Source: Buttiauxella izardii (GTDB lineage: Bacteria; Pseudomonadota; Gammaproteobacteria; Enterobacterales; Enterobacteriaceae). From it: a stretch of DNA of 64,000 nucleotides. Position 1 is the first letter of the stretch. Every line of letters begins with the position of its first letter. A program made the position numbers and the translations under genes. The notes below the pieces were generated by a model that was not told the origin of the DNA, made no database searches, and saw nothing but the letters and a program-made list of their open reading frames with translations. The DNA lies in contig NZ_QZWH01000010.1 in the NCBI RefSeq assembly GCF_003601925.1, positions 1 to 64,000 on the forward strand, read 5' to 3'. This document shows positions 9,675-27,445 of this stretch, in pieces.

Positions 9675-9679
9675 GATGA

Positions 9680-10114: not shown

Positions 10115-10131
10115 TGGTGCCCTGCAGGAAT
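10115..10131. other. Putative attL
   Basis: TGGTGCCCTGCAGGAAT here matches TGGTGTCCCCTGCAGGAAT at the tRNA-Arg 3' end except for two missing bases; the CCCTGCAGGAAT part is identical. It is the only copy I found at the expected distance. Confidence 0.6.
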
Positions 10132-13318: not shown

Positions 13319-13507
13319 TCATCTACGTAGCGTATCTGGTTTCTTCCACTGGTAAGCCGGGCTGGTCATCATGTTCCTGAAGCGGTTACGGTGCGCGATG
13401 CTGTCTTGTATCGAGCGGTGTATCTCTCGCTGGTCTGCCGGGGTGAGCTGGTGGCCTTCATGTTCAAGTTTGGCGATAGTGAGTAATTCTATCTCGCGTG
13501 GCGTCAT
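13319..13507 (-). CDS. Small hypothetical protein
   Basis: 62 residues beginning MTPREIELLTIAKLEHEGHQ, charged and helical, with many Arg/His in the second half (RNRFRNMMTSPAYQWKKP). The ATG at 13507 has GGGAA about 9 bases upstream, a weak ribosome site. No domain recognised. It sits between the winged-helix gene and a divergent AlpA-like gene. Confidence 0.45.
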   Translation of the reverse strand: MTPREIELLTIAKLEHEGHQLTPADQREIHRSIQDSIAHRNRFRNMMTSPAYQWKKPDTLRR

Positions 13508-13612: not shown

Positions 13613-13804
13613 ATGACATTAAATCAATCTCTCCTGATCGCAGAATCCGAAGTGATGGAAATCCTGTTAATTTCGTCCAGGCAAACTATCTGGAATTACA
13701 TCAACCATTACGGATTCCCGAAACCGATTCGAACTCGGCCCAAAGCCTACCTCCGGGAAGATGTGGAGCATTGGATCAGAAATGGTGGCGTTAACCAGAA
13801 ATGA
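13613..13804 (+). CDS. AlpA-family helix-turn-helix regulator
   Basis: 63 residues, ATG at 13613 with an excellent AAAGGAGTCGCG ribosome site. It has the AlpA/MerR-like pattern: VMEILLISSRQTIWNYINHY, then GFPKPIRTRPKAYLREDVEH and WIRNG. AlpA proteins typically activate excision or late genes in P4-like elements. It is followed 72 bp later by a second, interrupted AlpA-like frame. Confidence 0.75.
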   Translation: MTLNQSLLIAESEVMEILLISSRQTIWNYINHYGFPKPIRTRPKAYLREDVEHWIRNGGVNQK

Positions 13805-13876: not shown

Positions 13877-14101
13877 ATGCCTTTGTCACTGATGAGAATT
13901 GACCAAGTGTGCGCGGTTATAGGCTATAAAAAACCCACCATATACCAATAGATGCGGGAAGGAAAATTCCCTCGGCCGATTAAAATTGGGCGCAGCGCTC
14001 GTTGGCCTTCGGACGTAGTAGACTCATGGATTAACGATCGGATAAATGAGAATAAAAATTACGGCTGGATAGCTTGCCAAGCTAGCAGCAGCCTTGAATG
14101 A
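13877..14101 (+). pseudogene. AlpA-like gene interrupted by TAG
   Basis: From the ATG at 13877 the frame reads MPLSLMRIDQVCAVIGYKKP then TIYQ, stops at TAG (13949-13951), and continues in frame as MREGKFPRPIKIGRSARWPS then DVVDSWINDR to TGA at 14099. The two parts together make a standard AlpA helix-turn-helix of about 73 residues. CAG or TGG to TAG would explain the stop. This is the second of two adjacent AlpA-like genes on this strand. Confidence 0.65.
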
Positions 14102-14470
14102 ATTACAGCTTTTGACAACCACTACTTGTTGGAACGGCTTTCATCAATCCCTGCACATTCCCTTTTTAGTGGCTCTAAAAACTCACGTGCGCGTGTTGGG
14201 CGTGAAAGTCGTCTGCTCGCGTAGTGATGACCGATTAATCTTCCTCGTGTGGTGACCCCAGATAAATCTTCCCGCATTTTAATGCGCCGGCACTCACGTG
14301 CGCGTATTGGGCGCGAAACTAACTGGAACAGCATTGGCATTGGGCTGAGCTATCGCATTCCAATGTCTGGTTTTGTGAGGTTCCCTTCACAATATGCGCA
14401 TCTGCAATATCTCTTTTCTGCGCGAACCAATGTGCGAACTTAGTGCTGATACCATGTTGTGAATTGACCA
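14102..14470. repeat. Non-coding stretch with Ash-type direct repeats
   Basis: I see no convincing gene here. ACTCACGTGCGCGTGTTGGG (about 14182) recurs as ACTCACGTGCGCGTATTGGG (about 14290), each followed by CG(T/C)GAAA. Between them is CTCGCGTAGTGATGAC (about 14217), the same motif that is arrayed at 26960-27223. The stretch looks like a displaced piece of an Ash region. Confidence 0.45.
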
Positions 14471-14563: not shown

Positions 14564-14884
14564 ATGCGTAGAGTACTTATTGTCGCAGCAGCGAGCCTTT
14601 GGCTACTTTCTGGACATGCGATAGCTTTGGATGCGAGTGATTTTTCTGACTTAGAAGGGTATACGGTAGCCAAGATAACCAAAGTAGATGGTGATTTTGA
14701 AGGCTGTGAATATGACAAAAAAATCACATTAATCAATGGCTGGACTCTCACTTGTAGTACATACCATTACTCGTATTCGTACTCGCCTCAAGTAGCCATT
14801 CTGAGTAGAGATATAGGCTCTGGGTATTCCATCAAGGCTGTAATCGGTGATTATGTTTATGAAATGCAGCCAATAAGAAAATAA
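14564..14884 (+). CDS. Exported hypothetical protein, first gene of lipoprotein cassette
   Basis: 106 residues, ATG at 14564 behind a strong AAGGGGGG. A Sec signal peptide (VLIVAAASLWLLSGHAIALD, cleavage about residue 22) precedes a small domain with two cysteines (EGCEYDKK and TLTCSTYH) that may pair in the periplasm. Upstream, TTGAAC and TATGGT with 17 bp between them could be its promoter. The next three genes are in the same direction with gaps of 14-27 bp. No family recognised. Confidence 0.65.
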   Translation: MRRVLIVAAASLWLLSGHAIALDASDFSDLEGYTVAKITKVDGDFEGCEYDKKITLINGWTLTCSTYHYSYSYSPQVAILSRDIGSGYSIKAVIGDYVYEMQPIRK

Positions 14885-14900
14885 CAATAGTGAGAATTTA

Positions 14901-15128
14901 ATGAATAAATTAATTGTGTTGCTTCCCTTCCTGCTGGTTGCATGCACTACAACGACAGAGATAAATCGCGGCAATGGTAAAAAGCAATTCTTGATTGCTT
15001 GCGGAGCTTCAACCCCTTGGAGTATCTGTTACGACAAGGCCAATGAGGTTTGCCCATCAGGTTATAACGATGTATCAAAATCTGGTGGATTCAACCGCAA
15101 AGAATTAACAGTAGAATGCATAAAATAA
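14901..15128 (+). CDS. Small lipoprotein
   Basis: 75 residues. Residues 1-15 (MNKLIVLLPFLLVAC) form a lipoprotein signal with lipobox LLVAC; the modified Cys would be residue 15. The mature part holds four further cysteines (LIACGAS, SICYDK, EVCPSG, VECIK), suggesting disulfides. The residue after Cys is Thr, compatible with outer-membrane sorting. Second gene of the cassette. Confidence 0.65.
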   Translation: MNKLIVLLPFLLVACTTTTEINRGNGKKQFLIACGASTPWSICYDKANEVCPSGYNDVSKSGGFNRKELTVECIK

Positions 15129-15155
15129 GAACATTATAAAATTAAGGTGATAGCA

Positions 15156-15539
15156 ATGAAAAAGATTTTGATTACCGCTTTCGTCGCAATAGCGTTAGCT
15201 GGTTGCGCCACGAAAGGCACCCGCATTATGAACATTCAGGCAAACTGTGATGCCGTTAGTCCTGAGCCGCAAGACTTCTATAATTTCGTTGCTTGCATGA
15301 AGTCTGGCATTGCGCAGGATGAAAAACTGGCATCAACGCCAGTGGTCATTAAGTACGTTACAATGGCAGATCGTCTTTCTGCTCGCGCCCGCGCCGGAGA
15401 TATCTCTCTTGCAGAAGCGCAATGGGAGCTTGATGGGTATTACCGCCAAGCTAACCCACGCGCCCGCCACCGCCGTGCGCCTAAGCCAGTACAATCCGTT
15501 CAGCAACCGGTTCAAGTTGACAAACAAGTACAACAATAA
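15156..15539 (+). CDS. Lipoprotein with Arg/Gln-rich tail
   Basis: 127 residues from the ATG at 15156 (AAGGTG seven bases upstream), preferred over an ATG three codons earlier. Lipobox LAGC at residues 16-19, a helical domain with Cys pair (ANCDAV, VACMKS), and a basic, then Gln/Pro/Val-rich C-terminus (RARHRRAPKPVQSVQQPVQV) that could contact peptidoglycan or a partner. No family recognised. Third gene of the cassette. Confidence 0.65.
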   Translation: MKKILITAFVAIALAGCATKGTRIMNIQANCDAVSPEPQDFYNFVACMKSGIAQDEKLASTPVVIKYVTMADRLSARARAGDISLAEAQWELDGYYRQANPRARHRRAPKPVQSVQQPVQVDKQVQQ

Positions 15540-15553
15540 AATTAGAGATAGCT

Positions 15554-15982
15554 ATGAAATATTTAATGATAGCGCTACTTTCACTTTTATTAACCGCGTG
15601 CGCGACTGGCGAGAAGATTGGTGATTTGTCACCTGGAATGTCTCGCGAGCAGGTAATACAAACTCTCGGTAAACCTGATGGTGACGCGGTTAATGGTAAG
15701 AATGAACTTCTAACTTACTCTAATCGCCTTATGTCAGGATGGAGTTATGATCGAGCCGATTACAAGGTAGTTCTTGAGGATAATAAGGTTGTGCAGTATG
15801 GCGCTGATGTAATTCGCCAGGATAATGGCATGGCGGCGGCAAGGGCACTAACGGCACAGCAAAGTCTGTTAATTTGGCAACAGCAGCAAGCTCTGCAAAA
15901 TCAGTCTTCTTCTGTAGTGCCAAGAAGCACGACGACGAATTGCTTTAAAAATGGCAACAACGTTACATGCAATAGTTATTAG
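15554..15982 (+). CDS. SmpA/OmlA (BamE)-like lipoprotein
   Basis: 142 residues. Lipobox LTAC at residues 13-16, then GDLSPGMSREQVIQTLGKPD, the helix-loop signature of the SmpA/OmlA fold, followed by strands LLTYSNR ... YKVVLEDNKVVQYG. The C-terminus is Gln/Ser-rich. It resembles the BamE fold but is not the housekeeping BamE. Last gene of the four-gene exported cassette, converging on the ejection operon with a 24-bp gap. A surface or periplasmic role such as superinfection exclusion is conjecture. Confidence 0.65.
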   Translation: MKYLMIALLSLLLTACATGEKIGDLSPGMSREQVIQTLGKPDGDAVNGKNELLTYSNRLMSGWSYDRADYKVVLEDNKVVQYGADVIRQDNGMAAARALTAQQSLLIWQQQQALQNQSSSVVPRSTTTNCFKNGNNVTCNSY

Positions 15983-16006: not shown

Positions 16007-18820
16007 TTACTTCTCGTGCGAATCTCCTGATAGCCAGCCAATAATGCCCACTCTGGCTATCTTCTCTTTCTCCGCTGCTGGAAGTACCCGGTTAAACTCC
16101 TTCCATGCATGAAGCTGGGACAGGCGCTTATCAAAGTGATTGACGATCTTATCCTGAGTTGCTGCTGGTGGCTTAGTTCTGGCAGCCGCGACCATATCTT
16201 TCCATACAGGGCTGGTCATTAAATCCTGAACCGCCTCGGCTCCGGTTCTTCTCGTCGCTGCCTTGGCCCCCATATGAGAAGCAATGGATGTATTAAGTAC
16301 CGGGCCCACCACCGGAACATGCCCCATTGCTGTTGCGATTAATGCCATCTTCCCGTGCTTTGATAACTGGTCAACAAATCCCCCTGGCTGGTCAAATTTT
16401 TGGAGGAACCCGTTTAGCTTGCCGTTCGGAATATGGAAACGGTTAGTTGCCTTAACCTCACGCCCGAAAGTATAAAAACTCTCAAGCTCGCGCATTGTCT
16501 GTGGTGGAAGCTCTTTCGCCAGCAGTCGCACCGTCCCTTTGCGCTTCAGCTCACCATAGAAATCTACCAGCCCATTGATGTTTTCAGCCAAATCAGAGCG
16601 GCTACCTTTCCGCAGCATGTCGCGCATTCCGGTAGCAATGAGCTGGCTACGCATCTCTTTGTCAGGCATCGAGCGCATAAGCTGAGTGAATGGCTTTGTA
16701 TTGCCGCTATACAGTCCATCAAGGGCGTTCTTGGCCTTAACCGTCACATCTCCTGTGAGATCTTTACCAAGCAGATTATGAACGCGCTTTTCCATCATCT
16801 TACGCTGTGCGGTAACGGCATTGGCGGCCTTTATCTGATCTCCAAACCCAGCCGCAATTGCTACAGAGTCACGATCTTTGGAAAGCACTGAATAAAGCTG
16901 GCTGAGGTTTCTTTCCTCTGTACTGCCAAAAAGAGTTTTCGATTTATCCAGCTCAGCGCCAACGAGTGACCTCATATTTTTCAGGCGTTGATAGGTTAAT
17001 GGGCCGCTGTTCTCTGACATGGGCGATATGGCGTCATACACCTTTTTTTCGACCGTAGAGAGGTGTTGATACCCGCCAACATCATCAGCCATGGTATCAA
17101 GCGCATTACGTGTATTAACCGCGTCAACCTGTGTACGTGGCGATAGTCCCTCATTCACTGGTTTATAAAGCTCGTCCTCTTTGGCCTTCAATGCTTTTCG
17201 CGTGGTTTCAAAACTGGTTTTGAATTTATCGTCCATCGCCAGTCTGTCAGGCATCGCCCCGGCATCATCAATTATCTTTGATGCTCGCTCCGAGATACGT
17301 TTAATACTGTCGCGCTTCACTGCTGCCAGCGCCGATTCATCCTGAGAGGCAAGACCCATCTGCACAGCTTTAAATGCGTCATTGCCTGATGTGTACGCCT
17401 CAAGCATATCGTTGGGATCAAGGCCGAGTTGTTTAGCGGCATCTATAGTTTCTTGCTTCGGCTGGATATCGTTAATCACCTCAGCAATACGCCCTTCATT
17501 GCCAGACTGAGCCGCTTTTCCGTAGCTGGCTGCCGTCGCGTTAGTTGTTTCAGGCCCCGCTTGGGTAACGTTTGGCGCGGTAGCCATATCGGGCGCTGCT
17601 GCGTTCATTGTGGACTGTGCGCCAGCATCAGCATCCTGACCGGCACCACGAATAGCATTAACAACCTTCTGCCCACTTCTTACCATCGCTCTACCAGCCG
17701 TGGATCCAGCAAGCCCCAGCGCGGTTTCCTGTGCAAACTTAGCTGGGTCAATTTGTCCATTCTCTTGCGAGGCCACCAGCGTACCCGGCAAGTTTTCAGA
17801 CAGCATACCTGCAACCTGTGTGGCTGCTCGTTGTGCGCGGGGAGCATTTGCAACTGAGGCAGTTGCGGCTGCGGTTTTTTCTGCGGCCACTCCGGGTATC
17901 AGGTACGGGCCAATCTCCTCCCCAATTTTTGCGTAAGGGTCTGTCGGACGGTCAACAGGACGTGATACAGGTGAAAGCGGAATGTATGTGCCATCACCCA
18001 TGCCAAGCTGCTTTCCTGCCCATGCTCCTGCTGATTGGGCCGCATTCATCACCCCGATCCCGGCATCCATCACATCAAACGGTATGTTTGCAATTCCGCG
18101 AGCAGCCTGCTCCGGCGCGGCCTTCATTTCTGGCGACAGATACTCCATTTCTGGATTCAGATTCGACTGCGCAACCTCTGGTTGCTGCTCGCCAGGGGAA
18201 GTATTAGACAGGAACTGCGCGCGCTTTTCTTCCCATGAGCTTGCTGTTGGTCTTCCCGCCTGCTGATTGGTGAATTGCGCACGCCTGGATTCCCAAGCTG
18301 ATGTATCACCTACAGCCGAGATAGCATTATCCAGCTCACCATAATCAGGCTGCTGGAGTTCCTTTCGTGCTGGACGCTTTGCAGACTGAGCATACTGAAG
18401 TGCTTCGCTATCTTCGGGAATAATCCCCGCATCTGAAAACTTCTGGAGATAGTTGGCGGTTTCATCTGGCAGGGTCGTTTTGCCGTTTCTGACAGCGTTC
18501 ATTCTGCCATTGCCGGAGTTGTATCCAGCTATAGCCATACCAATATCGCCAAACCTTTTCATTCCACGGTTAAGGTGTGCGGCTGCGATGCTCAGTTGCT
18601 GCTTGTAGGGTAATGAAGCAGGGTCTACGCCACTCATCCCGGCGTCGGTCATAGCAGAGGGCATCAACTGTGCATAACCGCGAGCACCTTTGCTGGATGT
18701 GACATCTCCTTTTCCCCCAGACTCTGTATGAACAAGAGTTTCCATTGTTCCCTGCGGGAAGCCGTATTTGTTGTCGAGATTTCTGGCGAATGACGCCTGT
18801 GAATCATTCAATCTCGCCAT
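16007..18820 (-). CDS. gp16-like DNA-ejection protein with lytic transglycosylase domain
   Basis: 937 residues, far longer than P22 gp16 (609). Residues about 10-130 are a soluble lytic transglycosylase: catalytic Glu33 in HTESGG, SKGARGYAQLMP at 43-54, and AGYNSG at 98-103. A linker with repeated SWEEKRAQF-type phrases follows, then a long Ala-rich helical body with hydrophobic segments (for example FDVMDAGIGVMNAAQSAG), as expected for a protein ejected ahead of the phage DNA that helps form a channel through the envelope. It is the last gene of the ejection operon, overlapping gp20 by one base (TAATG). Confidence 0.85.
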   Translation of the reverse strand: MARLNDSQASFARNLDNKYGFPQGTMETLVHTESGGKGDVTSSKGARGYAQLMPSAMTDAGMSGVDPASLPYKQQLSIAAAHLNRGMKRFGDIGMAIAGYNSGNGRMNAVRNGKTTLPDETANYLQKFSDAGIIPEDSEALQYAQSAKRPARKELQQPDYGELDNAISAVGDTSAWESRRAQFTNQQAGRPTASSWEEKRAQFLSNTSPGEQQPEVAQSNLNPEMEYLSPEMKAAPEQAARGIANIPFDVMDAGIGVMNAAQSAGAWAGKQLGMGDGTYIPLSPVSRPVDRPTDPYAKIGEEIGPYLIPGVAAEKTAAATASVANAPRAQRAATQVAGMLSENLPGTLVASQENGQIDPAKFAQETALGLAGSTAGRAMVRSGQKVVNAIRGAGQDADAGAQSTMNAAAPDMATAPNVTQAGPETTNATAASYGKAAQSGNEGRIAEVINDIQPKQETIDAAKQLGLDPNDMLEAYTSGNDAFKAVQMGLASQDESALAAVKRDSIKRISERASKIIDDAGAMPDRLAMDDKFKTSFETTRKALKAKEDELYKPVNEGLSPRTQVDAVNTRNALDTMADDVGGYQHLSTVEKKVYDAISPMSENSGPLTYQRLKNMRSLVGAELDKSKTLFGSTEERNLSQLYSVLSKDRDSVAIAAGFGDQIKAANAVTAQRKMMEKRVHNLLGKDLTGDVTVKAKNALDGLYSGNTKPFTQLMRSMPDKEMRSQLIATGMRDMLRKGSRSDLAENINGLVDFYGELKRKGTVRLLAKELPPQTMRELESFYTFGREVKATNRFHIPNGKLNGFLQKFDQPGGFVDQLSKHGKMALIATAMGHVPVVGPVLNTSIASHMGAKAATRRTGAEAVQDLMTSPVWKDMVAAARTKPPAATQDKIVNHFDKRLSQLHAWKEFNRVLPAAEKEKIARVGIIGWLSGDSHEK

Positions 18821-20169
18821 TACATGCCACCATTGAGCTGTGCCTGATAATAACCCTCTGGCAGGTAGCCATGAGCCGTGACGTACTCTTTCACCAGTGA
18901 AGGATCTTGCATCAACATCTGAACATCTGTGGTTTCGTCTTTTGATTTAGTGACCGGGATACCAAGATCGGATATCTGGCGCTTTTGCATGCGCATAATA
19001 GCGTTTTGGCTTTTATTCAATTCCCGCACAAAGTCAGTGTTGCTGGTGGCATTTTTCAGGCCAGTCTGTGCTTGCATTAGCGCCGTTCGCTCCCCCTCTG
19101 TTGGGTTCCCACCAAACGTACCGCGCAGGGCTGGAAGCACCACCTTCAGGTTGTATTCGTTTGATTTGGCAGCAAGCGTTTTAGTGTCGTCTGATAAATT
19201 CGGTAATACACCGAGCACTCCACCCTGGTTGCGACTTACCGCGGTAGGGTGAGCTCCAACAATTGAGGAGAGTTCTCGGCCCACGCCGAGAGCCTGATTC
19301 AGGCTGTCGAGATTGCCAGCCACAGTATTGATTTTGTCAGTCTGTTTTTCAGTCTTCGCCTGCTGAACCTTCGTTATCTCGTTATTAATTTTCTCACGTT
19401 CAACATCATTGGTTTCCTTGCCAAGACGGGCTTTGAGAACCATTTCACGAGTTCTAAGCTGGTTGTCAGACTGAGCCTTATATTGATCCAGGTCTAAACG
19501 CTCATCACCTTGTCTTACAACCTGCACAGCGTTATAGGCATTAGTGTTGGCATTTTGCTGTGCCACGCCCTGCGCTTGCTGCTTATCTCTCACGCCAAAA
19601 TAGCTGTTAGGGTCAGCGTGAAGATGAATAAGGTCTGTCATCTGGTTAAAGCCTTGCGGGTTCTGTTGCCATGACTGATAAACCTCTTGAGGGGTCAAGC
19701 CAAGACGCTGTAATACTGGTTCAGCTCCTTGTGCCGCATTAATCACGGCTTGCGGGTCGTTACTTTGTGATGCCAGGCGAAGATTCATCGCAGCGCTGGC
19801 AGTTTGCTTGTTCTGCTCGGCATCAACGAAACCCATTTGCTTTTGGGCATCCTCCAGGAATTGAGGGTATTGCGCGAATAGTTTTTGTACTGCCTCCTTA
19901 TCGTTATTTGCTACTGCCGCACCCACCTTGGATTGGTAGTCTTTCTTTTGCTGCGCCATTTCCGCTTGCTGCAAACCCATTCGGACATCACCAAATCCCT
20001 TTACCGCCTGTAATCCAATATTGTTCTGGCCTGCACGCTCCCGGTCGTTGTTGTCACGGATGTATGCCATAGTCCGATCAACATCACTGGCTTGCGGTGC
20101 GTTGGTATTATTCATCCCAATGCCACCAAGCAAGCCACCTGGATTACCATTTTGTTGCCATGTAGCCAT
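18820..20169 (-). CDS. gp20-like DNA-ejection protein
   Basis: 449 residues (P22 gp20: 471). The body is Gln/Ala/Asn-rich and mostly helical with coiled-coil stretches (about residues 215-290), and the C-terminus GYLPEGYYQAQLNGG fits the family. In P22 gp20 is carried in the virion and enters the cell with the DNA. Its place between gp7 and gp16 supports the assignment more than any single motif. Confidence 0.8.
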   Translation of the reverse strand: MATWQQNGNPGGLLGGIGMNNTNAPQASDVDRTMAYIRDNNDRERAGQNNIGLQAVKGFGDVRMGLQQAEMAQQKKDYQSKVGAAVANNDKEAVQKLFAQYPQFLEDAQKQMGFVDAEQNKQTASAAMNLRLASQSNDPQAVINAAQGAEPVLQRLGLTPQEVYQSWQQNPQGFNQMTDLIHLHADPNSYFGVRDKQQAQGVAQQNANTNAYNAVQVVRQGDERLDLDQYKAQSDNQLRTREMVLKARLGKETNDVEREKINNEITKVQQAKTEKQTDKINTVAGNLDSLNQALGVGRELSSIVGAHPTAVSRNQGGVLGVLPNLSDDTKTLAAKSNEYNLKVVLPALRGTFGGNPTEGERTALMQAQTGLKNATSNTDFVRELNKSQNAIMRMQKRQISDLGIPVTKSKDETTDVQMLMQDPSLVKEYVTAHGYLPEGYYQAQLNGGM

Positions 20170-20177
20170 TTCTCACC

Positions 20178-20822
20178 TCAGAATAAAGTTGATGCTCCGC
20201 CGATCACGCCGCCAGCTATCGCTCCGTATGGCCCACCAATCTGCGCACCCATTGCGGCCCCAGAAGCGGCTCCCATTGCAAAGCCGCCGAGTTTAGATGG
20301 CTTGTTAGCATTAGCTGCGGAAATTCCCGCCTGCTGCTGCGCTAACTGCCCGGCATTGTTGGCGTAGGATTGCCCGGCATTCATCTGCCCGGTTAACGCG
20401 CCGAATCCCATATTCGCCAAGTTTTGATAGTTATTCATCTGACCACCAAGCCAGGCCTGCCCAAGTGTTGGAGCAATAGATGCCATCTGGTTGCTGGTTG
20501 CCGTGGAACCAAGCCCTCCAGTTGCCTCTGCTGCTGCCAAATTCTGATAGCGAGCCTGATCTGCCATCATTTTGTATTGGTCAGAATTGTAAAACTGCCC
20601 TAAAGCATTAGCCTGACCGCCAAGAGTGGATAAATTCTGTAACTGGCTAACCCCCTCCTGTGCAAGTGGCGTGAACGGGGCAAGATTTGCCAGCGTCGTC
20701 TGCCATTGCTCACGTTGAAGCTGAGTAGCCTTTTCTGTTGCCTTGGCAGCGCCTCCATCCCCGCCACCTTTGCAGTAGACGGCCTTGTTGAGATGCTTGC
20801 TTGCGATTTGATGAATTAGCAT
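20178..20822 (-). CDS. gp7-like DNA-ejection protein
   Basis: 214 residues (P22 gp7: 229). Recognisable by NSDQYKMMADQARYQNLAAA, EATGGLGSTATSNQMASIAP and NYQNLANMGFGALTGQM, and by a glycine-rich C-terminal membrane-type segment (GAASGAAMGAQIGGPYGAIA). In P22 the first 20 residues of gp7 are removed; the N-terminal MLIHQIASKHLNKAVYCKGG here may be the matching propeptide. It overlaps the gp14-like gene by 7 bp. Confidence 0.85.
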   Translation of the reverse strand: MLIHQIASKHLNKAVYCKGGGDGGAAKATEKATQLQREQWQTTLANLAPFTPLAQEGVSQLQNLSTLGGQANALGQFYNSDQYKMMADQARYQNLAAAEATGGLGSTATSNQMASIAPTLGQAWLGGQMNNYQNLANMGFGALTGQMNAGQSYANNAGQLAQQQAGISAANANKPSKLGGFAMGAASGAAMGAQIGGPYGAIAGGVIGGASTLF

Positions 20823-21277
20823 TTGATTAGATCCTTGTACTGATTGCGGCAGAGTTGATACAACGTCACCCCTACAGGGTTTCCGTTGCTGATGTAGGCA
20901 TCATCAAGGTGTCCAACGCGAGTTGCGCCAAGCAAGCGGATAATTGCGCGTCCGTATTTGGTTGTATCGGGAACCATGGTGATGCTGTTTGTGAAAGGGG
21001 AGTTTTCGAGAAGCCATTTGCAGAATAAGCGGTGTCCCTGGAGAGCATATTCACCACGGAAACCGGGGGAGTAGATGGCGTGGCATTCAACTACCATATG
21101 CCAGAAGCTGCGCACCTCATGGACTCCGACAAGTAACACGCCCTCGTACACGCCAAGGTAAAGCGCTTCAGGTTTTATCAGGTAGCTCCCCCCTGTACCC
21201 ACAATATTTCCTGTATTGCTGCGGTCATTGAGAAAGGCCTGTAAGCGCAATGGGTCATCAATGATTTTTAGTTTCAT
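20816..21277 (-). CDS. gp14-like protein, DUF2824 (N-acetyltransferase-like)
   Basis: 153 residues. The protein begins KIIDDPLRLQAFLNDRSNTG and contains VHEVRSFWHMVVECHAIYSP and NSITMVPDTTKYGRAIIRLL, matching the P22 gp14 family by memory. Gp14 is a head-assembly protein of P22 located immediately before gp7, and its fold resembles GNAT acetyltransferases. Here it opens the ejection cassette behind a tiny RHH gene. Confidence 0.85.
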   Translation of the reverse strand: MKLKIIDDPLRLQAFLNDRSNTGNIVGTGGSYLIKPEALYLGVYEGVLLVGVHEVRSFWHMVVECHAIYSPGFRGEYALQGHRLFCKWLLENSPFTNSITMVPDTTKYGRAIIRLLGATRVGHLDDAYISNGNPVGVTLYQLCRNQYKDLIKC

Positions 21278-21297
21278 GCGCTATCTCCTGACGGATT

Positions 21298-21465
21298 TCA
21301 CATCGCTGAAGCTAGGGCTTTATTCACCAGGCTACGCACAATGGCATTAAGTGAAGGAGCCAGATTAAGCGGCGATTTGCTGCGTTCTTCGTCCTGAATG
21401 CGCTTAACTTCTGCCATTTGCTCTTTGGTGAGTAACACCGGTTTAAAGTTTGGGTTCTGTGCCAT
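21298..21465 (-). CDS. 55-residue putative RHH-like regulator leading the ejection operon
   Basis: The frame from ATG 21465 to TGA 21298-21300 has a good GAGAGAGG ribosome site six bases upstream. The protein begins MAQNPNFKPVLLTKEQMAEV and ends PSLNAIVRSLVNKALASAM. The first part could form a strand, the last a helix pair, as in small Arc-type RHH repressors, but the match is weak. It is followed 20 bp later by the gp14-like gene and preceded by a promoter with a palindromic operator, so it is the first gene of the ejection operon. Confidence 0.55.
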   Translation of the reverse strand: MAQNPNFKPVLLTKEQMAEVKRIQDEERSKSPLNLAPSLNAIVRSLVNKALASAM

Positions 21466-21479
21466 TTCATGCCTCTCTC

Positions 21480-21527
21480 TGTATGTTTATACAGGTCAAT
21501 AATATTTCATAAAACGCAACGTAACAA
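21480..21527 (-). promoter_or_regulatory. Promoter and operator of the ejection operon
   Basis: On the minus strand TTGTTA (21527-21522) and TATTAT (21504-21499) are separated by 17 bp. Five bases past the -10 begins TGTATAAACATACA (21493-21480), with TGTAT/ATACA arms placed over the expected start point. Its first seven bases equal those of the palindrome at the RHH gene promoter (11555). Confidence 0.6.
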
Positions 21528-21560
21528 ACAATCATTGCAAATTATGCAATACAAGGCCGT

Positions 21561-21584
21561 AAAAAAAGCCACCGTTCTGGTGGC
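21561..21584 (-). terminator. Intrinsic terminator ending the replication operon
   Basis: On the minus strand GGCCACC-AGAAC-GGTGGC is followed by TTTTTTT. It separates the primase/SSB operon from the ejection operon. Confidence 0.85.
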
Positions 21585-21641
21585 CTGTGAAGTAGCGCTG
21601 GTATCTGGAAACATCAGCAAAATATTTTGCCGGTGATAAGG

Positions 21642-21912
21642 CTAATTCTTTTTGCCGGATAGCCGGAATGCTTCTCCGCCTGGCTGCGCTATTCCCATGC
21701 GGTGCTGTGTCTCTTTTGCTGCTCTGCTTAGGCCACCAAAGTTCTCTGCCTGCTGCGGTGGCAGCCTGGCGAGATCAATACATCTGGCTCTGCGTGATGC
21801 TATCCACTCCCGATCGTTCTCACTGGCGCACTGCTCGAGCACTTCCAGCCAGCGTGATGCGGCACGGCGGTATAACCTTTTTGCTTCCAGTTCTTCGGCC
21901 GTCTTTCACCAT
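21642..21912 (-). pseudogene. PerC-like regulator gene with a +1 frameshift
   Basis: The ATG at 21912 follows ssb closely (AAGGGAAAGAGAG upstream) but reads only MVKDG before leaving the conserved frame. The next frame reads without ATG as EELEAKRLYRRAASRWLEVL, then EQCASENDREWIASRRARCI, to the stop at 21642. The RRAASRWLEV phrase is typical of the PerC-like family found in enterobacterial mobile elements. Removing one base of GGCC at about 21898 would give MVKDAEELEAKRL. I therefore call a frameshifted gene of about 89 residues; a sequencing error is the alternative. Confidence 0.55.
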
Positions 21913-21926
21913 CTCTCTTTCCCTTG

Positions 21927-22361
21927 TCAGAACGGCGCTTCATCGTCAAGCTGTGGGCGCTGGTCAAATTCATCACTCTGCTGCTGGCTGGCATGATTCA
22001 GGGCGCTGGTGGCCTGACCTTGTGAGCCTTTCTTACCACCGGGACGTGCTGTCCTGGCGCTAATCACGCTGTCGGCTATAACCTGCGGCTGCTCCTTCTG
22101 TACGCCGTCCTGTCCTGCCCACTGGTTTAACTGCATGTTGCCGGCAACGCTTATCAGATCGCCTTTCTGGTGCTTCGCCAGCAGTTCGGCCTGTTTGCCA
22201 AATGCCACAACGCCCAGCCAGTAAGTGGCTTCACCGTTCGGTCCCGTATGGCAGGGCAGAGATACCGCTAGTCGCGCCATTGTCATTTGCTTGTCGTTCG
22301 CTGTAGTGCGGGTCTGGGGATCTGCCACCAGCCGCCCGTATGCTGAAATCTGTGCTGTCAT
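21927..22361 (-). CDS. ssb: Single-stranded DNA-binding protein
   Basis: 144 residues, ATG at 22361 with GAGGAAG upstream. An OB-fold of about 105 residues (begins MTAQISAYGRLVADPQTRTT; includes VVAFGKQAELLAKHQKGDLI and VAGNMQLNQW) is followed by an acidic tip DDEAPF, close to the DDxxPF tail that recruits replication proteins. It lies just downstream of the primase gene and the iteron cluster, as part of the element's own replication module rather than the host ssb. Confidence 0.85.
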   Translation of the reverse strand: MTAQISAYGRLVADPQTRTTANDKQMTMARLAVSLPCHTGPNGEATYWLGVVAFGKQAELLAKHQKGDLISVAGNMQLNQWAGQDGVQKEQPQVIADSVISARTARPGGKKGSQGQATSALNHASQQQSDEFDQRPQLDDEAPF

Positions 22362-22426
22362 TTTTCATCTTCCTCATGATCTACGTGACATTGCCAAGGT
22401 AATTCAGGCCGCAATGGTCATTTTCT

Positions 22427-22523
22427 GGGATAACTTGGGATAACTTTGGGATAAATTGAATACTATTAACTAACTGTAATATAAGCATTCATATTTAACT
22501 TATCCCGCTATCCCACTTATCCC
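22427..22523. other. Iteron cluster 2 (ori/crr-like)
   Basis: GGGATAA starts at 22427, 22437 and 22448, about one helical turn apart. TTATCCC starts at 22500 and 22517, with a one-mismatch copy (CTATCCC) at 22508. The groups face each other over about 45 A+T-rich bases. The site lies between the primase and ssb genes and mirrors cluster 1 at 11262-11366. Confidence 0.6.
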
Positions 22524-22563
22524 AGACATTTACTCGCGTATGAGAGATTTATAACTGGCTGGC

Positions 22564-25332
22564 TTAGTCTTCTTCAACATCCACCAGAACCACAAAGCGC
22601 TGCTGTGTGCCATTGATACTGATTGTGCGACTGTCAAGGCGTCCCTTTTCCTTCCGCACCAGCATTCCGGCATCATCAAGGGCTTCACCGCCCAGCTTCT
22701 TCTGAATACCAGCGAGGATCTCCGCTTCAAATACAGAAGGGATGACGTGATATTCCTTCCGGCCGTCTTCACGCCGACCATCCACCAGATACCCTGCAAG
22801 GTTCTGAATGCTCCGCGCATGGGTCTGATCCATGTTCCCATTGGTCTTGCTGGTGGTGTAAGGCTGGAAGCGTGACAGGCCGTAACGCTGAATAAAGTCA
22901 CGAGCACGGGTTACCACCTGGTGTTTCTCACGATTACCCAAACCATAATTCTCCAGCCAGTCTTTGAAGCTCTGGCGAACGGCAGCGGCGCATTCCTCGG
23001 AGCCCCAACCGGTAAGCTGCGCGGATAAGGTGGCTGCTGCGTCGAGCAATGCAAAGCGAGTCGCCACACGCTTCACCTGCGCGGAGGCACCCTCTGGCAG
23101 GCTATCAAGCCACTCATTTTCCTTGCTACTCACCATCTGAATGGCAGTTTCTTTGTCTGCTGCGAGCAGAGCAATCCATTCACGCCCAACTGACCCGCAA
23201 CAACGAGCTGCCTCTCGCTTAATCGCGCGAGAATGCTGATCGCCATCATCCATGCCGTTAAACTCCACGGTATCGATAAACGGCACACTCACCAGGCGCA
23301 CCAGTTGCCCGGCCTTCGGACTCATGCCATGTTTGAGCATGAAGGTCTCAAAGTCTTCCTCGCCGGTACTAAGGGCTGAGACCGTCCAGCGCAACACCGC
23401 ACGGTTTCCACCTTCCTTGGCACCCTGTACCTTTCCTACACCGTTAAAAAGGGTATAGGCGCTGGTGGATACCTGCTTTGCATCGCCTCCCTGACCGATT
23501 TCATCAATGGGTAAGAACCCATCGTTACGGGATGCCGCCTCCACAGTCATGCCGTAGGCCGTAGTGAACCAGGATAGTTTCAACATATCCGGGACGCCGT
23601 AGATGCTCGATGCCGCTTCCACTGTTGTTGTCTTCCCGGCTGAAGACTGAGCAAACAGGTGAATACCAAAGCAAGAACCACCCGCCAGGGAGTTAAGTGG
23701 TGCGGCAAAGGCCACCAGCGCTCCCAGCATCATTGACTGATTGCCACGCATCAGCGCGGCTACGTTCTCACGCCATTGTTTTGTATTACCACGCACTATA
23801 TAACCCGCCACCGCAGACGTGCCGCCACAGAACGCCACAGGCATATCAGGAACACCGACAATCTCACCGTCAGGCATGACATAAGCGCCACAATGCCAAC
23901 CCGCTGTTTGAGTTATCGTCCATGGCGTACGTTCACCACGTCTTTGCAGGTGATCACCCAGAATATCGAGCAATGATTTACGTGTAGTGATGTTCACCCC
24001 GCGAGAGCGCAGACGCCCCCATCCAGCAGGCTGTCCCACCTCGCGCCGTGGTACCGCTTCAAACATTACGGCACTGCTTCCCTCTGGTTTCAGGCGAATA
24101 ACCAGATAGTTCTCGCGCCCGTCCTGACCGATCCCCACCGTTTCCAGCTCATCGCATAGCCATGTTTCTTTCTCGTCAATGTCGCCGGTATCGTTATTCA
24201 CCTTGGGTTCAACCCAGAACAAACCGCCGTGTCGAGCAGATATATAGGGTTTCAGTTCCTCACGTTTAGGCTTGTTTCCTGCAACCAGCGTCAGCGTTGG
24301 AGCGGTGTTAGTGTTCATAGCGTACATCTCATTGTTAAAGGCGCTGGTGGCAGCGTCGATACCATGTAACTGGCGGTAATCGTCCCAGTCAGCTTTGCAT
24401 TCCCCTGGTGGCATGGACACCCACCCTGAAACAGCTTTCGCTGCTTTTTCTGCCATAACTTTTCCAGTGTTTACCTTTGGCTTTCCCTGATCGTCCAGCT
24501 CACCGGGCTTATGCCAGTCGTTATCTGCACAAAGGACAATTCTTGCCTCCGGATATCTCCGACGCATAAGCTCAGCAATGTGGATCATGTTGCCAGCGTC
24601 TATTGCTGCCACCGCAAGCGCATCAGGCAGCATCAGGTGAGCCGTTAAGGTATTTGCCAGCCCTTCGCCAATTAAAACCATCTGCGGTGCTTCTGGTGCG
24701 TTTACAGCGTGATAAGCGCCTCGCTTGGCTGAGCCGTAGAGCACTTTCTTTTCACCATGCGGTGTAATTGTCTGCGCTGCGGTTACATCCCCTGACTCAC
24801 CCACCAGCGCCAGCAGCAGTGAACCATCAGAGAGAGCCGGGTAAGTGAAGCCCCCCAGTCCTTTGGCTTTCAGGTATTCGCTTTCGCCCGGCGCGGCTTG
24901 TTCTGCCAGTGCCTGGTATCTGGTGGTGAAGGCATTACGGCGCTTTACCGCATCCTCTGCGGCTTTCTGGTCGCGTTCTTGTTCCCGCTGCTGGCGCTCT
25001 GCTTCCAGTTGCCCTTTGTTCTGGCTGGCTACCGGTTCGGCTGCCCGGTAATCAATACCCAACACACCTGCAACCAAACGGGCTGCTTCTGCGGCATCAC
25101 AGCGATTCACTTTCTTCACCAGCTCGAGACCATCACCCGCACCACATACATTGCAGAAATGCGCACCGCGCCCATTATCATCAAAACGGAACCGGTCTTT
25201 GCCACCACAAGCTGGACAAGCAGCCTGCGCACGAGGTGAAGCGGGAACGTTTATATCCAGCATTGAGAGCACGTCAGGCCACTTACCGCGAGCGACCTCA
25301 GCTACCTCACGGATCACATCAATGTTTCGCAT
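22564..25332 (-). CDS. Toprim-DUF927 primase/helicase (P4 alpha-like role)
   Basis: 922 residues from the ATG at 25332; an in-frame start 21 bp upstream lacks a better ribosome site. Order: zinc-binding motif with Cys39-Cys42 and Cys60-Cys63 (CPACGGKDRF ... FCNVCGAGDG); Toprim domain near residues 220-290 (VLIGEGLANTLTA, then IVLCADND); DUF927 ATPase with Walker A AQSSAGKTTT near residue 565 and a following acidic LPIDEIGQGG. Such proteins combine primase and helicase functions for satellite replication. The 5' end overlaps the preceding small gene by 14 bp, so it is translated as the last large gene of the AlpA-led operon. Iteron cluster 2 lies 41 bp beyond its stop. Confidence 0.85.
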   Translation of the reverse strand: MRNIDVIREVAEVARGKWPDVLSMLDINVPASPRAQAACPACGGKDRFRFDDNGRGAHFCNVCGAGDGLELVKKVNRCDAAEAARLVAGVLGIDYRAAEPVASQNKGQLEAERQQREQERDQKAAEDAVKRRNAFTTRYQALAEQAAPGESEYLKAKGLGGFTYPALSDGSLLLALVGESGDVTAAQTITPHGEKKVLYGSAKRGAYHAVNAPEAPQMVLIGEGLANTLTAHLMLPDALAVAAIDAGNMIHIAELMRRRYPEARIVLCADNDWHKPGELDDQGKPKVNTGKVMAEKAAKAVSGWVSMPPGECKADWDDYRQLHGIDAATSAFNNEMYAMNTNTAPTLTLVAGNKPKREELKPYISARHGGLFWVEPKVNNDTGDIDEKETWLCDELETVGIGQDGRENYLVIRLKPEGSSAVMFEAVPRREVGQPAGWGRLRSRGVNITTRKSLLDILGDHLQRRGERTPWTITQTAGWHCGAYVMPDGEIVGVPDMPVAFCGGTSAVAGYIVRGNTKQWRENVAALMRGNQSMMLGALVAFAAPLNSLAGGSCFGIHLFAQSSAGKTTTVEAASSIYGVPDMLKLSWFTTAYGMTVEAASRNDGFLPIDEIGQGGDAKQVSTSAYTLFNGVGKVQGAKEGGNRAVLRWTVSALSTGEEDFETFMLKHGMSPKAGQLVRLVSVPFIDTVEFNGMDDGDQHSRAIKREAARCCGSVGREWIALLAADKETAIQMVSSKENEWLDSLPEGASAQVKRVATRFALLDAAATLSAQLTGWGSEECAAAVRQSFKDWLENYGLGNREKHQVVTRARDFIQRYGLSRFQPYTTSKTNGNMDQTHARSIQNLAGYLVDGRREDGRKEYHVIPSVFEAEILAGIQKKLGGEALDDAGMLVRKEKGRLDSRTISINGTQQRFVVLVDVEED

Positions 25333-25711
25333 CACCGTACCCCGTGTAATCAACCGCCCTGGCTATGTAGTCCATCAGCGTTTTCCATTTAATCTGACCG
25401 TATTCAGAGAGCTGCCCCTCATCATCCAGCCACATATCAAACTCCGCTGAAGCCGTTAACTTCCATGCTTCCTTGTGCGCTAACTTCATCAGTGGAAGAA
25501 GGACGGCATCAATCAGTTCAGTCACATCTACCGGTTTGAGTTCTGTCTCAACCTCCCGGCCTTCTGGCGTATGTAGCGTGGTTGACTCAACACCATTCAC
25601 ATACAGGTTATGAACCCAGACAGCTCCGGCAATTCTGGCGACCTGCTTAGCCAGTTCATCACTCAGGGCGTACTCAGCCTTTTCAGATAGCGCGTTGGTT
25701 TGCTCGGTCAT
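25319..25711 (-). CDS. Hypothetical protein of satellite replication operon
   Basis: 130 residues starting MTEQTNALSEKAEYALSDEL. Soluble and mildly acidic; contains PVDVTELIDAVLLPLMKLAH and YGQIKWKTLMDYIARAVDYT. No domain recognised, but genes of this kind commonly precede the primase in P4-like elements. It overlaps the primase gene by 14 bp and the previous gene by 4 bp (ATGA), showing tight translational coupling. Confidence 0.65.
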   Translation of the reverse strand: MTEQTNALSEKAEYALSDELAKQVARIAGAVWVHNLYVNGVESTTLHTPEGREVETELKPVDVTELIDAVLLPLMKLAHKEAWKLTASAEFDMWLDDEGQLSEYGQIKWKTLMDYIARAVDYTGYGDAKH

Positions 25712-25935: not shown

Positions 25936-26159
25936 GCCTGACCTCCCCGTGATTCGCTCTCAGTTTCCTGCACTCTTTCCAGATCTCTATAGGCTGAGCC
26001 AGCGAGTGAACGTATGCCACCAATTGCTCCTTCCATCACTGTTACGTCCAGTTGGTCACTGGCAAACTCGACAGCAAGCAGCAGGCACTCAATCTGCGAG
26101 ACTCTTTGCATTGCTGCCTTGAATTGCGGAAGTTTGGTTATTGCATTATTCCATTTCAT
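25932..26159 (-). CDS. Small hypothetical protein, satellite operon
   Basis: 75 residues beginning MKWNNAITKLPQFKAAMQRV, helical, with a Glu/Arg-rich C-terminus (RDLERVQETESESRGGQA). Overlaps both neighbours by 4 bp. It may be a small regulator or structural helper of the operon; no function can be read from the sequence. Confidence 0.6.
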   Translation of the reverse strand: MKWNNAITKLPQFKAAMQRVSQIECLLLAVEFASDQLDVTVMEGAIGGIRSLAGSAYRDLERVQETESESRGGQA

Positions 26160-26362
26160 GCCACCACCTCCGGCAGTTGATTACCTTCCAGCAGACAATG
26201 CAGATCACGAATGGAGATATCGAAAAGACCAACGAGGGCAGCCAGGTATTTATCACGGTTATCTGAATCGCTTTCGAGAACATCGCGCATCAACTCAGCC
26301 AGTGAGATTAATTGCGCAGTGCGCTCTATAGGATCGACGGTTAAATCGTAGGTTTTAAGCAT
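26156..26362 (-). CDS. Small hypothetical protein downstream of Icd-like gene
   Basis: 68 residues from the ATG at 26362 (MLKTYDLTVDPIERTAQLIS ... LLEGNQLPEVVA), acidic and helical. It overlaps the Icd-like gene by 8 bp and the next gene by 4 bp. The same frame is open far upstream to 27445, so this protein could instead be the C-terminus of a long Ash-type product; the internal ATG is preferred because it fits the overlap pattern of the operon. Confidence 0.5.
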   Translation of the reverse strand: MLKTYDLTVDPIERTAQLISLAELMRDVLESDSDNRDKYLAALVGLFDISIRDLHCLLEGNQLPEVVA

Positions 26363-27445
26363 GTGACACCCCCTGTACGAGGATGCGACCAGCAAAGAAG
26401 CAAACATGGTCACGCGCAAGAACGCGGCGTGCTTCTTGTTCTGAAATAGCAGGGATATGGTGGATAACAGCTGTGATTGTCGGACAATCGCGGCGAACTG
26501 CGGCGATAATCCAGATAAATTCTGGTGTAACTTGGGCGAGGGTAGTAGCCATGAGGCAGCCTCCTTTGTGTGATTTAAATCACCACCGAAGAGACCAATC
26601 TTGCTGGTGGTGAGCTGGACAGAGTTGGTCTTACCGGACACAAAGGAACCCGGCGCTTCCGAAGAAGCCCCCATCCAGCCCACCATAATTTCGTGAGCGG
26701 CGCGGATTATAACCGCAACGCTGAAAAAAGTGTGAGCCAAACCGTCGACACAAAAAAAGACGCTAGGCGCGTCATGTGTCGCCTTTGTGTTATCCGGGAG
26801 ACCAATCCCGGCACCAGATTTTGCTGGTGCGTCGTTACCGTATCCCATAGCAACGGATGGCTGCAAGCCCTTTTTTATGGTGCTGCGGAACTCGTCGCCC
26901 TTTTTTATGGACTCCGAAAACTCCCCTCGGGCGCGCGTACTTGTCGCGAAACCCCGCCCCTCGCGTAGTGACTTCAGAAAAACCTTCAAACACAGGCGCA
27001 GATTAGAACTGAAGTTTTCTGAAGGAGCTAATACACGGGAAGTCCTCGCGCGCGGGCGCGTACTGTTGCATAAACTCCCGCTCTCGCATTGTGATGTCCG
27101 AAAAACCTTCCCGTCTTGCGATATGACCCCGCATAAACCTTTGTCTGCTCGCGTAGTGACGTAATTAAAATCTTCAGCTCGCGTGATGATTTCCGAGAAA
27201 CCTTCCGCTGCTCGCGTGGTGACCGTAATAAAACCTTGGCCACCACTCATCGCGCACTTATGGACATTAGGTTTTATAAGGTTTTCGATGTCAGGTTTTG
27301 ACAGGTAATCAGCCAAACTTTCGGCTGATTTATCGTTAGGATTTGTTAGGAACTGAGCGGAATATTTCGCTGAGTCCTGGACCATAACATTTGATAACAG
27401 GCCAGCCAGGGAAAAGCCCTTATTCTGGACGGCAGCATTAAGCAT
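26156..27445 (-). CDS. Long Ash-family reading frame with TTRA repeats
   Basis: A single frame of 429 codons runs from just inside the antirepressor gene to 26156. Residues 1-70 (MLNAAVQNKGFSLAGLLSNV ...) are followed by about ten-residue repeats with TTRA (VTTRAAEGF, IITRAEDFN, VTTRADKGL), a basic Arg/Ser segment, and near residue 209 the Ash signature APAKSGAGIGLPDN, then IMVGWMGASSEAPGSFVSG and GLFGGDLNHTK. The C-terminus shares the frame of the 68-residue gene and overlaps the Icd-like gene in another frame. How much of this frame is translated is uncertain; part of it may be regulatory RNA or DNA repeats that happen to stay open. Confidence 0.4.
   Translation of the reverse strand: MLNAAVQNKGFSLAGLLSNVMVQDSAKYSAQFLTNPNDKSAESLADYLSKPDIENLIKPNVHKCAMSGGQGFITVTTRAAEGFSEIITRAEDFNYVTTRADKGLCGVISQDGKVFRTSQCESGSLCNSTRPRARTSRVLAPSENFSSNLRLCLKVFLKSLREGRGFATSTRARGEFSESIKKGDEFRSTIKKGLQPSVAMGYGNDAPAKSGAGIGLPDNTKATHDAPSVFFCVDGLAHTFFSVAVIIRAAHEIMVGWMGASSEAPGSFVSGKTNSVQLTTSKIGLFGGDLNHTKEAASWLLPSPKLHQNLSGLSPQFAAIVRQSQLLSTISLLFQNKKHAAFLRVTMFASLLVASSYRGCHMLKTYDLTVDPIERTAQLISLAELMRDVLESDSDNRDKYLAALVGLFDISIRDLHCLLEGNQLPEVVA
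26355..26552 (-). CDS. Icd-like protein (host cell division inhibitor-like family)
   Basis: 65 residues: MATTLAQVTPEFIWIIAAVR, then ISEQEARRVLARDHVCFFAG, ending RILVQGVSHA. The EARRVLARDxVxFFAGRI phrase is characteristic of the Icd-like proteins of P1/P4-type elements, some of which block host cell division; activity here is not shown. Located between the CI-like RNA region and the small genes of the replication operon, as is usual in P4-like satellites. Confidence 0.65.
   Translation of the reverse strand: MATTLAQVTPEFIWIIAAVRRDCPTITAVIHHIPAISEQEARRVLARDHVCFFAGRILVQGVSHA
26791..26830 (-). ncRNA. CI-like hairpin pair, copy 2
   Basis: Contains CGGGA-GACCAA-TCCCG and GCACCAG-ATTTTG-CTGGTGC, two consecutive perfect stems. 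It is the counterpart of 9871-9910 and lies upstream of the Icd-like and primase genes in the transcribed direction, the place of the immunity CI RNA in P4-like elements. No promoter was identified. Confidence 0.45.
26960..27223. repeat. Array of CTCGCGTAGTGAC-type repeats, period about 32 bp
   Basis: Copies of a 13-bp motif (CTCGCGTAGTGAC and variants) start at 26960, 27083, 27115, 27148, 27178 and 27211; the last five are 30-33 bp apart. The spacers also share GAAAAACCTTC. The period equals about three helical turns and also eleven codons of the overlapping frame. Confidence 0.7.

Follow-up and report, generated by a model that had tools for sequence, protein, structure and literature searches.

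P22-type DNA-ejection genes and arrays of terminase-gene-like candidate packaging sites in a putative phage satellite of Buttiauxella izardii

What use would a phage satellite have for the DNA-injection proteins of a P22-like phage? Satellites steal capsids, resize capsids and redirect packaging, and the gp7, gp20 and gp16 families are injection proteins in phages. The question is raised by positions 16007-25332 of a 64-kb stretch of Buttiauxella izardii DNA (assembly GCF_003601925.1, contig NZ_QZWH01000010.1, positions 1 to 64,000; hereafter the window), where gp14-, gp7-, gp20- and gp16-like genes lie beside genes for a single-stranded DNA-binding protein (SSB) and a Toprim-DUF927 primase. 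We propose, with a probability of about 0.72, that the surrounding element is a phage-inducible chromosomal island (PICI) that is packaged by P22-like helpers through captured pac sites and puts its own ejection proteins into the particle.

Pfam and PHROGs searches confirmed the identity of the four genes and of their SSB and primase neighbours, as a first-pass annotation of the letters alone had read them. The cassette and its upstream region comprise:

20816-21277, minus strand: gp14-like gene (DUF2824/phrog_651, E 1.7e-62; Pfam/PHROGs)
20178-20822, minus strand: gp7-like ejection protein gene (P22_gp7, 5.1e-73; Pfam/PHROGs)
18820-20169, minus strand: gp20-like ejection protein gene (Inj_translocase, 6e-31; Pfam/PHROGs)
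16007-18820, minus strand: gp16-like ejection protein gene, 937 aa with an SLT transglycosylase domain (phrog_770 "DNA transfer protein", 1e-46)
21566-21586, minus strand: hairpin followed by a T-run, before the virion module; a feature class not above chance

All four open reading frames (ORFs), from 21277 to 16007 on the minus strand, are unbroken, and adjacent ones overlap or abut. The first-pass annotation had described a clean operon with its own promoter and terminator, and the case for these two signals is weak. A -35/-10-like pair lies just upstream of the module (21527-21499, minus strand), and hairpins and promoter-like pairs over the whole region number 8 and 8 against shuffle means of 6.6 and 7.7, no clear excess. 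We compared 22 proteins of Kapi1, a Lederbergvirus of 39,436 bp with its own gp14-, gp7-, gp20- and gp16-type genes, with the whole window (tblastn, E 0.01). Only the four cassette proteins and the integrase matched (5/22); terS, terL, portal, scaffold, coat, gp4, gp10, gp26, spike, holin, endolysin, Rz, Q, cI, repO, dnaB and xis had no match in the 64 kb, in agreement with the earlier statement that terminase, head, tail and lysis genes are missing.

The element that contains this cassette is larger than the stretch first described, about 21.4 kb between att-like repeats:

31515-31589, minus strand: tRNA-Arg (CCT), the insertion site (ARAGORN)
31513-31533, no strand: att-like repeat on the integrase side, at the tRNA-Arg 3' end, AATGGTG(TC)CCCTGCAGGAAT
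10113-10131, no strand: att-like repeat at the distal end, AATGGTG(TC)CCCTGCAGGAAT
30122-31348, minus strand: tyrosine integrase (Pfam)
28725-28964, minus strand: AlpA regulator, at the position of the PICI master regulator (Pfam, E 1.7e-17)
27438-28280, minus strand: AntA/AntB antirepressor
26156-27445, minus strand: ash gene, whose 5' part holds a terS/pac-like array (Pfam Phage_ASH)
22564-25353, minus strand: Zn-ribbon/Toprim/DUF927 primase (Pfam/PHROGs)
21927-22361, minus strand: SSB (Pfam/PHROGs)
21648-21899, minus strand: PerC-like regulator (tblastn, 59.5% over 84 aa)
21298-21465, minus strand: 55-aa protein upstream of the virion genes (homology across loci)
13613-13804, plus strand: second AlpA-like gene, on the opposite strand (Pfam below cut-off; phrog_66)

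The order from the tRNA is thus integrase, AlpA, AntA, ash, DUF927 primase, SSB, PerC-like gene, 55-aa gene and gp14-gp7-gp20-gp16, and paired TACCCCC arm-like sites spaced by 12 bp stand at each element end. Several features mark the element as a PICI: an integrase adjoining a tRNA, att repeats, AlpA downstream of the integrase, a primase before the virion module and, as expected of Gram-negative PICIs, no full set of phage structural and lysis genes in the window (tblastn with Kapi1 proteins). We rejected a capsid-forming PICI (cf-PICI), as capsid, portal and terminase of Kapi1 and of locus L098 have no match in the window.

The first-pass annotation, partly supported overall, overlooked that an element of this kind has been described experimentally. 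EcCIMP1, a 19,963-bp PICI of Escherichia coli, depends on its helper Kapi1 for excision, and Kapi1 transduces it (Pick and co-workers, ISME J 2025, PMC11773190). In its RefSeq locus (L210, NZ_CP139039) the genes follow the same order as in the window: DUF2824, a gp7-sized gene, a "phage DNA ejection protein" and a 906-aa "lytic transglycosylase domain" protein. Also common to both are integrase, AlpA, AntA antirepressor, ash, DUF927 primase, the 55-aa gene, PerC and, far from the integrase, a second AlpA of opposite orientation; both also have terS-like sites, some in the ash region and some in non-coding distal DNA. EcCIMP1 differs in sitting at tRNA-Thr and, in the MP1 annotation, in having no SSB at the corresponding position. 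Identities between the two are 78% (gp14), 59% (gp7), 65% (gp20), 43% (gp16) and 50% (primase). EcCIMP1_017-019 were proposed by the authors as packaging genes (PMC11773190), and a word search of the main text of that paper found none of the words ejection, injection, gp16 and gp20.

How would a P22-like helper recognize the satellite DNA? The pac site of P22 lies in terS, the gene for the small terminase subunit (PMC9611059), and a 12-bp core and a pattern of P22-used sites have been published (PMC11226127). The element carries two arrays of segments resembling terS at this position, which the first-pass annotation did not notice:

26960-27237, minus strand: five P22-type pac-like sites in ash (nhmmer starts 26960, 27083, 27144, 27171 and 27208)
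26970-26986, minus strand: site in ash fitting the published P22 pac pattern
26933-26952, minus strand: Kapi1-type terS-like site (exact 14-mer GCGACAAGTACGCG at 26934-26947)
26898-26923, minus strand: CUS-3/Sf6-type terS-like site (26/26 identical to CUS-3 terS)
14212-14320, minus strand: distal array in no recognised gene, two P22-type sites and one Kapi1-type site
14254-14270, minus strand: P22 site of the distal array with the exact 12-bp pac core

The published P22 pattern matches the element twice (26970-26986 and 14254-14270), with 0.055 matches expected and none of 200 dinucleotide shuffles reaching two, and once in the 42.6 kb of the window outside it. Of seven P22-like phage loci Louie alone has a match, which lies in terS; five other ejection elements and a relative from the window's genus (L203) have none. 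We scanned 80 satellite or primase loci (1.50 Mb) by nhmmer with 39-nt profiles taken from terS of P22-like phages at the pac position; this set included 7 of 16 P22-ejection loci, the other nine being shorter E. coli loci that were scanned with a fixed motif. The P22-type profile gave 28 hits in 15/80 loci: all seven P22-ejection PICIs, 2/17 tape measure loci and 6/45 others, with none in baseplate (0/5), capsid (0/3) or other ejection loci (0/3). The Sf6-type profile gave 31 hits in 20/80 loci (7/7, 5/17 and 8/45, and none in the last three classes). Kapi1 TerS forms a third small-terminase class beside these two, and its profile gave 31 hits in 18/80 loci, three of them in EcCIMP1 and three in the window. 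None of the three profiles hit shuffled loci (block-shuffled for the first two). Control terS segments gave 4, 0 and 0 hits (P22-type), 0, 0 and 0 (Sf6-type) and 1, 0 and 0 (Kapi1-type); the four P22-type control hits, in L139, L209, L211 and L215, all fall inside one longer antisense terS piece in ash, and two control profiles each scored once in shuffled DNA and not at all in real DNA.

Searches that use no profile point the same way. The 14-mer GCGACAAGTACGCG occurs in 17/226 loci: 12 are E. coli ejection PICIs and 5 belong to P22-like phages, with the Kapi1 copy lying inside terS. Comparison of the ash array (26850-27290) with 50,697 phage records by blastn returned 34 records at E up to 1. 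For 27 of them the matches, at three array positions, fall in a gene whose annotation reads terminase small subunit or DNA packaging (19 of these records are named CUS-3); the other seven matches lie in HNH endonuclease, hypothetical or unannotated sequence. The fixed motif AGTTTTnnGAGTCCATAAAAAA, with at most 3 mismatches, is found in 16/19 ejection satellites, the remaining three being of non-P22 types, in 5/17 tape measure, 0/5 baseplate, 0/3 capsid and 8/45 other primase loci, and in 11/105 P22-like loci, many of whose negatives stop before terS is complete or carry a terS of another class. The sites in ash lie in differing frames, the P22-type piece is antisense in E. coli PICIs, and the distal arrays have no annotated gene; the terS-like sites are thus unlikely to be kept for protein reasons. 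Because of these arrays, packaging by P22-like helpers through captured pac sites is the best-supported step of our proposal and is, as judged from sequence, well supported. Together with the EcCIMP1/Kapi1 pair, the arrays also lend support to the P22-like helper proposed earlier.

Is the cassette found in satellites elsewhere, or do full P22-like prophages alone carry it? L139, an independent element from another genus, carries AlpA, a 143-aa gene, Ant, ash, primase, gp14, gp7, gp20 and a gp16-like gene, at which its contig ends. Among 5,426 complete E. coli genomes, 235 cover at least 80% of the L139 query at one place, and 177 contain at least 80% of its ejection module. With window DNA as query no place in E. 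coli reached 80% coverage, and the E. coli PICIs were reached only through L139. Fourteen of them (L209-L211, L214, L215, L217-L225), chosen from hit lists and not at random, were fetched; gp20 and gp16 are both intact in eight, and L211, L214 and L215 keep only these two genes. Confinement of the cassette to full P22-like prophages, which would have refuted the first-pass annotation, is thus not what we see, and a restriction of gp7 relatives to phages was rejected. In IMG/VR, each of the best 80 of 210 gp7 loci (L007-L086) has at least one P22-type head or needle gene match, and a primase match was found in the fetched flanks of 1/80 (L076, 132 aa at 29%); IMG/VR favours phages, so ejection satellites appeared only in genome searches. 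A gp20 search of viral contigs found no relative, and a scan of genome contigs found one P22-like prophage. One IMG/VR contig of 56,962 bp holds a P22-like phage region (L023) followed by a PICI with a primase of the same type as the window's (76%) and a tape measure gene (L094), possibly a tandem insertion.

Comparison of primase loci suggests that the place occupied by the cassette is exchangeable. The primase search covered 392 genomes of the family, 79 of which gave a match, with 98 matches outside the window; we examined 61 of these (60 fetched and L139), most from the top of the list, which makes 62 loci with the window. The slot after the primase holds a tape measure protein in 11 loci and a fragment of one in another, a baseplate hub in five (phrog_196 in three, a BLAST cluster in two), P22-type ejection genes in two, other podovirus-type ejection or internal virion proteins in three, and capsid, portal and terminase in one. 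The slots of L198 and L202 match tape measure profiles, and five IMG/VR satellites (L093-L097) have a tape measure protein there. L203 is collinear with the window through SSB/PerC, where 757 bp are 94% identical in DNA, and through the 55-aa gene; in place of gp14-gp16 it then has a tape measure protein of 993 aa, and a 62-aa gene beyond it is again shared. Of 22 loci checked, the window among them, 16 have a homologue of the 55-aa protein ahead of the virion genes, and none was found in the other 6. This homologue immediately precedes the module in the P22-ejection types and in most of the baseplate types; for most tape measure genes the distance is 270-360 bp. The tape measure PICIs (L203, L149, L096 and others) thus have the window's backbone, its slot and one virion protein of the DNA-delivery path, and differ in carrying this protein in place of the P22 ejection proteins; cf-PICIs with tmp genes are noted in Extended Data Fig. 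10 of PMC12987554. The slot thus frequently serves the virion part that carries DNA through the envelope.

Several slot contents stand somewhat apart. In L156, L162, L185, L186 and L205 the baseplate hub is in some cases accompanied by baseplate-assembly or phrog_817 proteins, a possible myophage counterpart. L178, L180 and L158 carry the other podovirus-type ejection or internal virion proteins and have no P22-type or Sf6-type pac-like match. L203 sits at another tRNA-Arg (TCT, 18545-18621; the window's is CCT), and its integrase region is 72% DNA-identical to the window's despite the different tRNA.

Are the ejection genes under selection as satellite genes? We computed the ratio of nonsynonymous to synonymous substitution rates (dN/dS, omega) pairwise by NG86. 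Most intact pairs with unsaturated dS lie well below 1. For satellite gp16 pairs not involving W46, omega is about 0.06-0.2 at dS up to 0.25, and 0 and 0.32 at dS 0.004; gp20 gives about 0.15-0.37 for most pairs of 84-98% identity and 0.04-0.3 for closer ones; gp7 gives 0-0.17, and gp14 0-0.32, with 0.48-0.64 in two pairs at dS below 0.02. The window and EcCIMP1 gp14 genes have an omega of 0.12 at dS 1.25. A quick gp20 tree with long branches places window, EcCIMP1 and L224 together in a clade of satellites alone, at the end of a long stem. This tree requires 4 or more changes of the satellite label, so the ejection genes were acquired several times; the gp7 tree requires 2, and the window has no settled place in the gp14 tree. 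The best full-length gp20 match among the 50,697 phage records has 32% identity, against 65% between window and EcCIMP1; P22-like loci come to as much as 47% when the comparison is limited to the first 197 residues. For gp16 the best full-length match in these records is 29%, one record has a shorter piece at 60-80%, and prophages of other collections reach 48-52%. Re-acquisition from phages could lend younger satellite copies a phage-like dN/dS and is not easily squared with the window/EcCIMP1 gp20 lineage.

What is the mechanism of satellite delivery? After helper induction, AlpA would turn on the satellite, which would excise and replicate with its own primase and SSB. The helper terminase would then take up satellite DNA through the copies of the terS pac region, which make up two arrays and represent three unrelated small-terminase classes, and package it by the headful into the helper capsid. 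Two element lengths (2 x 21.4 kb = 42.8 kb) come to about one headful of a phage of some 40 kb, so that no small capsid would be needed; for EcCIMP1 the figures are 39.9 kb for two copies and 39.4 kb for Kapi1, and each helper headful may hold a satellite dimer. During assembly, satellite gp7, gp20 and gp16, with gp14, would replace or join those of the helper, giving a particle with the helper's shell, portal and tailspike and the satellite's injection machinery. This incorporation is suggested by the roles of the gp7, gp20 and gp16 families in phages and by a published case in the PICI-like elements (PLEs) of Vibrio cholerae, whose virions contain a tape measure protein encoded by the satellite (PMC12987554). 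PLE11 likewise puts its own tail component into helper-built particles; it is an unrelated satellite of the lytic, contractile-tailed phage ICP1, with a module of tape measure protein, tail assembly chaperone and baseplate hub (TMP/TAC/baseplate hub), and its incorporation was shown by experiment, whereas ours is predicted (PMC12987554). The benefit might be independence from the helper's ejection proteins, entry where a resident prophage excludes the helper, or both. The first-pass annotation had suggested a changed delivery range or an exclusion of helper DNA, both of them conjectural. With somewhat less confidence than for the proposal itself, we favour a broader view in which the ash and distal arrays form a library of helper pac sites, covering at least three small-terminase classes and so many P22-like helpers, with terS pieces preserved as DNA, in several frames and differing orientation, coupled to an exchangeable DNA-injection slot: a helper shell with the satellite's own injection machinery.

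Several observations weigh against this proposal. The published P22 pattern, as written, has no match in EcCIMP1, and a pac role of the Sf6- and Kapi1-type segments is assigned from position, not from published mapping. Gp16 or gp20 is broken in 6/14 E. coli copies by truncation, frameshift, insertion sequence (IS) or deletion, which shows frequent damage to chromosomal copies of the cassette: gp16 lacks its C-terminus in L209, L218 and L219, where the remainder is mostly kept, L219 also has a gp20 frameshift, an IS interrupts gp16 in L223 and L224, and gp20 is lost from L225. Omega for gp20 rises to 0.45-0.68 between W46 and relatives of 55-63% identity and to 0.5-0.6 between EcCIMP1 and the L209 type; window-EcCIMP1 dS is saturated except for gp14, and the remaining window pairs are saturated or nearly so. 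Among the 62 primase loci, 39 have no recognised virion gene in the slot. Transduction of EcCIMP1 by Kapi1 is low, and the available sections of PMC11773190 report no deletion of a cassette gene. EcCIMP1 and Kapi1 share 26% (gp20) and 24% (gp16) identity over the aligned parts, and compatibility with the helper is only presumed. The Buttiauxella element is known from its sequence, helper-dependent excision and transduction having been shown for EcCIMP1 only; and a further copy of gp7 or gp20 is missing from its genome, which thus shows no resident P22-like helper.

Could the locus instead be a P22-like prophage that decayed at this tRNA, its leftover ejection genes fused to a satellite by deletion? 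P22-like prophages do use the same tRNA-Arg site beside yfdC, two decayed-looking ones (L137 and L133), useful as negative controls, kept ejection genes without neighbouring head genes, and remnants resembling another satellite lie at 9.2-9.95 and 13.9-14.4 kb. However, the same cassette occupies the same slot in EcCIMP1 and other E. coli PICIs, siblings carry other injection modules there, and gp20 belongs to a satellite-only lineage. The cassette is also oriented away from the tRNA, the reverse of the arrangement in the IntS-type prophage L090, the leftover gp16 of L137 is split, and no terminase, head or tail gene or remnant matching Kapi1 proteins lies in the window. Slot recurrence and the gp20 lineage make decay very unlikely; random decay, which the first-pass annotation had doubted on the basis of its clean operon, is disfavoured on these grounds and by dN/dS values mostly well below 1.

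Two other explanations keep the satellite and change the use of the genes. The cassette might be a weapon, its ejection or tape measure proteins poisoning virion assembly of the helper or of a rival and so giving superinfection immunity. EcCIMP1 does add to superinfection immunity against Kapi1 (PMC11773190), and satellite proteins that block tail assembly are known (PMC11364771; PMC12987554). We nevertheless hold this unlikely: the cassettes have two to four genes, with gp20 and gp16 both intact in 8/14 copies, EcCIMP1 did not lower the yield of Kapi1 on induction (PMC11773190), and the tape measure proteins of PLEs become part of their virions (PMC12987554). Or the genes might act in packaging, as suggested for EcCIMP1_017-019, a role that fits their position downstream of the primase and the PHROGs filing of DUF2824 under head morphogenesis. 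It is distinctly improbable, given that the families with known roles here (gp7, gp20 and gp16) are injection proteins, that L211, L214 and L215 keep only gp20-gp16, and that the arrays already explain packaging. We retain the proposal of a PICI that supplies its own ejection proteins to P22-like particles.

The element type is already known from EcCIMP1, and satellite tape measure proteins, with chimeric tails in PLEs, have been in print since 2026 (PMC12987554). A full-text literature search, judged from its result listings and leaving out most subscription journals, found no report of P22-type ejection proteins as a satellite module, of a slot exchanged between podo-, sipho- and myophage types, or of terS/pac arrays in ash. 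P22, Kapi1 and CUS-3 (Lederbergvirus) have the gp14-gp7-gp20-gp16 order and the terS segments in common with the window and are complete phages, whereas the window has no match to Kapi1 head, tail, lysis and terminase proteins. If our reading is true, swapping the DNA-injection apparatus would be a general, modular habit of Gram-negative PICIs, with P22-type ejection as one case, and the arrays would show one satellite serving several pac-type helpers. They would also give candidate pac sites for phages with no mapped pac in the literature passages found. EcCIMP1/Kapi1 would become a tractable test bed for ejection-protein decisions at the inner membrane.

The distal part of the element holds further genes:

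14564-15982, plus strand: four small ORFs, three lipoprotein-like by eye (one BamE-like by Pfam)
13319-13507, minus strand: 62-aa protein, common with L203 (82% DNA identity over 170 bp)
11616-12059, plus strand: 147-aa gene; many siblings have homologues distal to the primase on the opposite strand
10849-11094, minus strand: excisionase (DUF1233)

PADLOC gave no match among 10 window proteins, and general ORF scans named no psu, delta, sid or epsilon gene of P4-like satellites, no dedicated P4 search having been made. Beyond the distal att, DNA repeats at 9243-9946 match the element's ash region (54 bp at 83%), which suggests debris of another satellite at the same site. A stretch at 13880-14320 looks by eye like an AlpA fragment, with terS-like sites adjoining it, and EcCIMP1 has a comparable arrangement (L210, 11200-11600), its distal array lying near the second AlpA.

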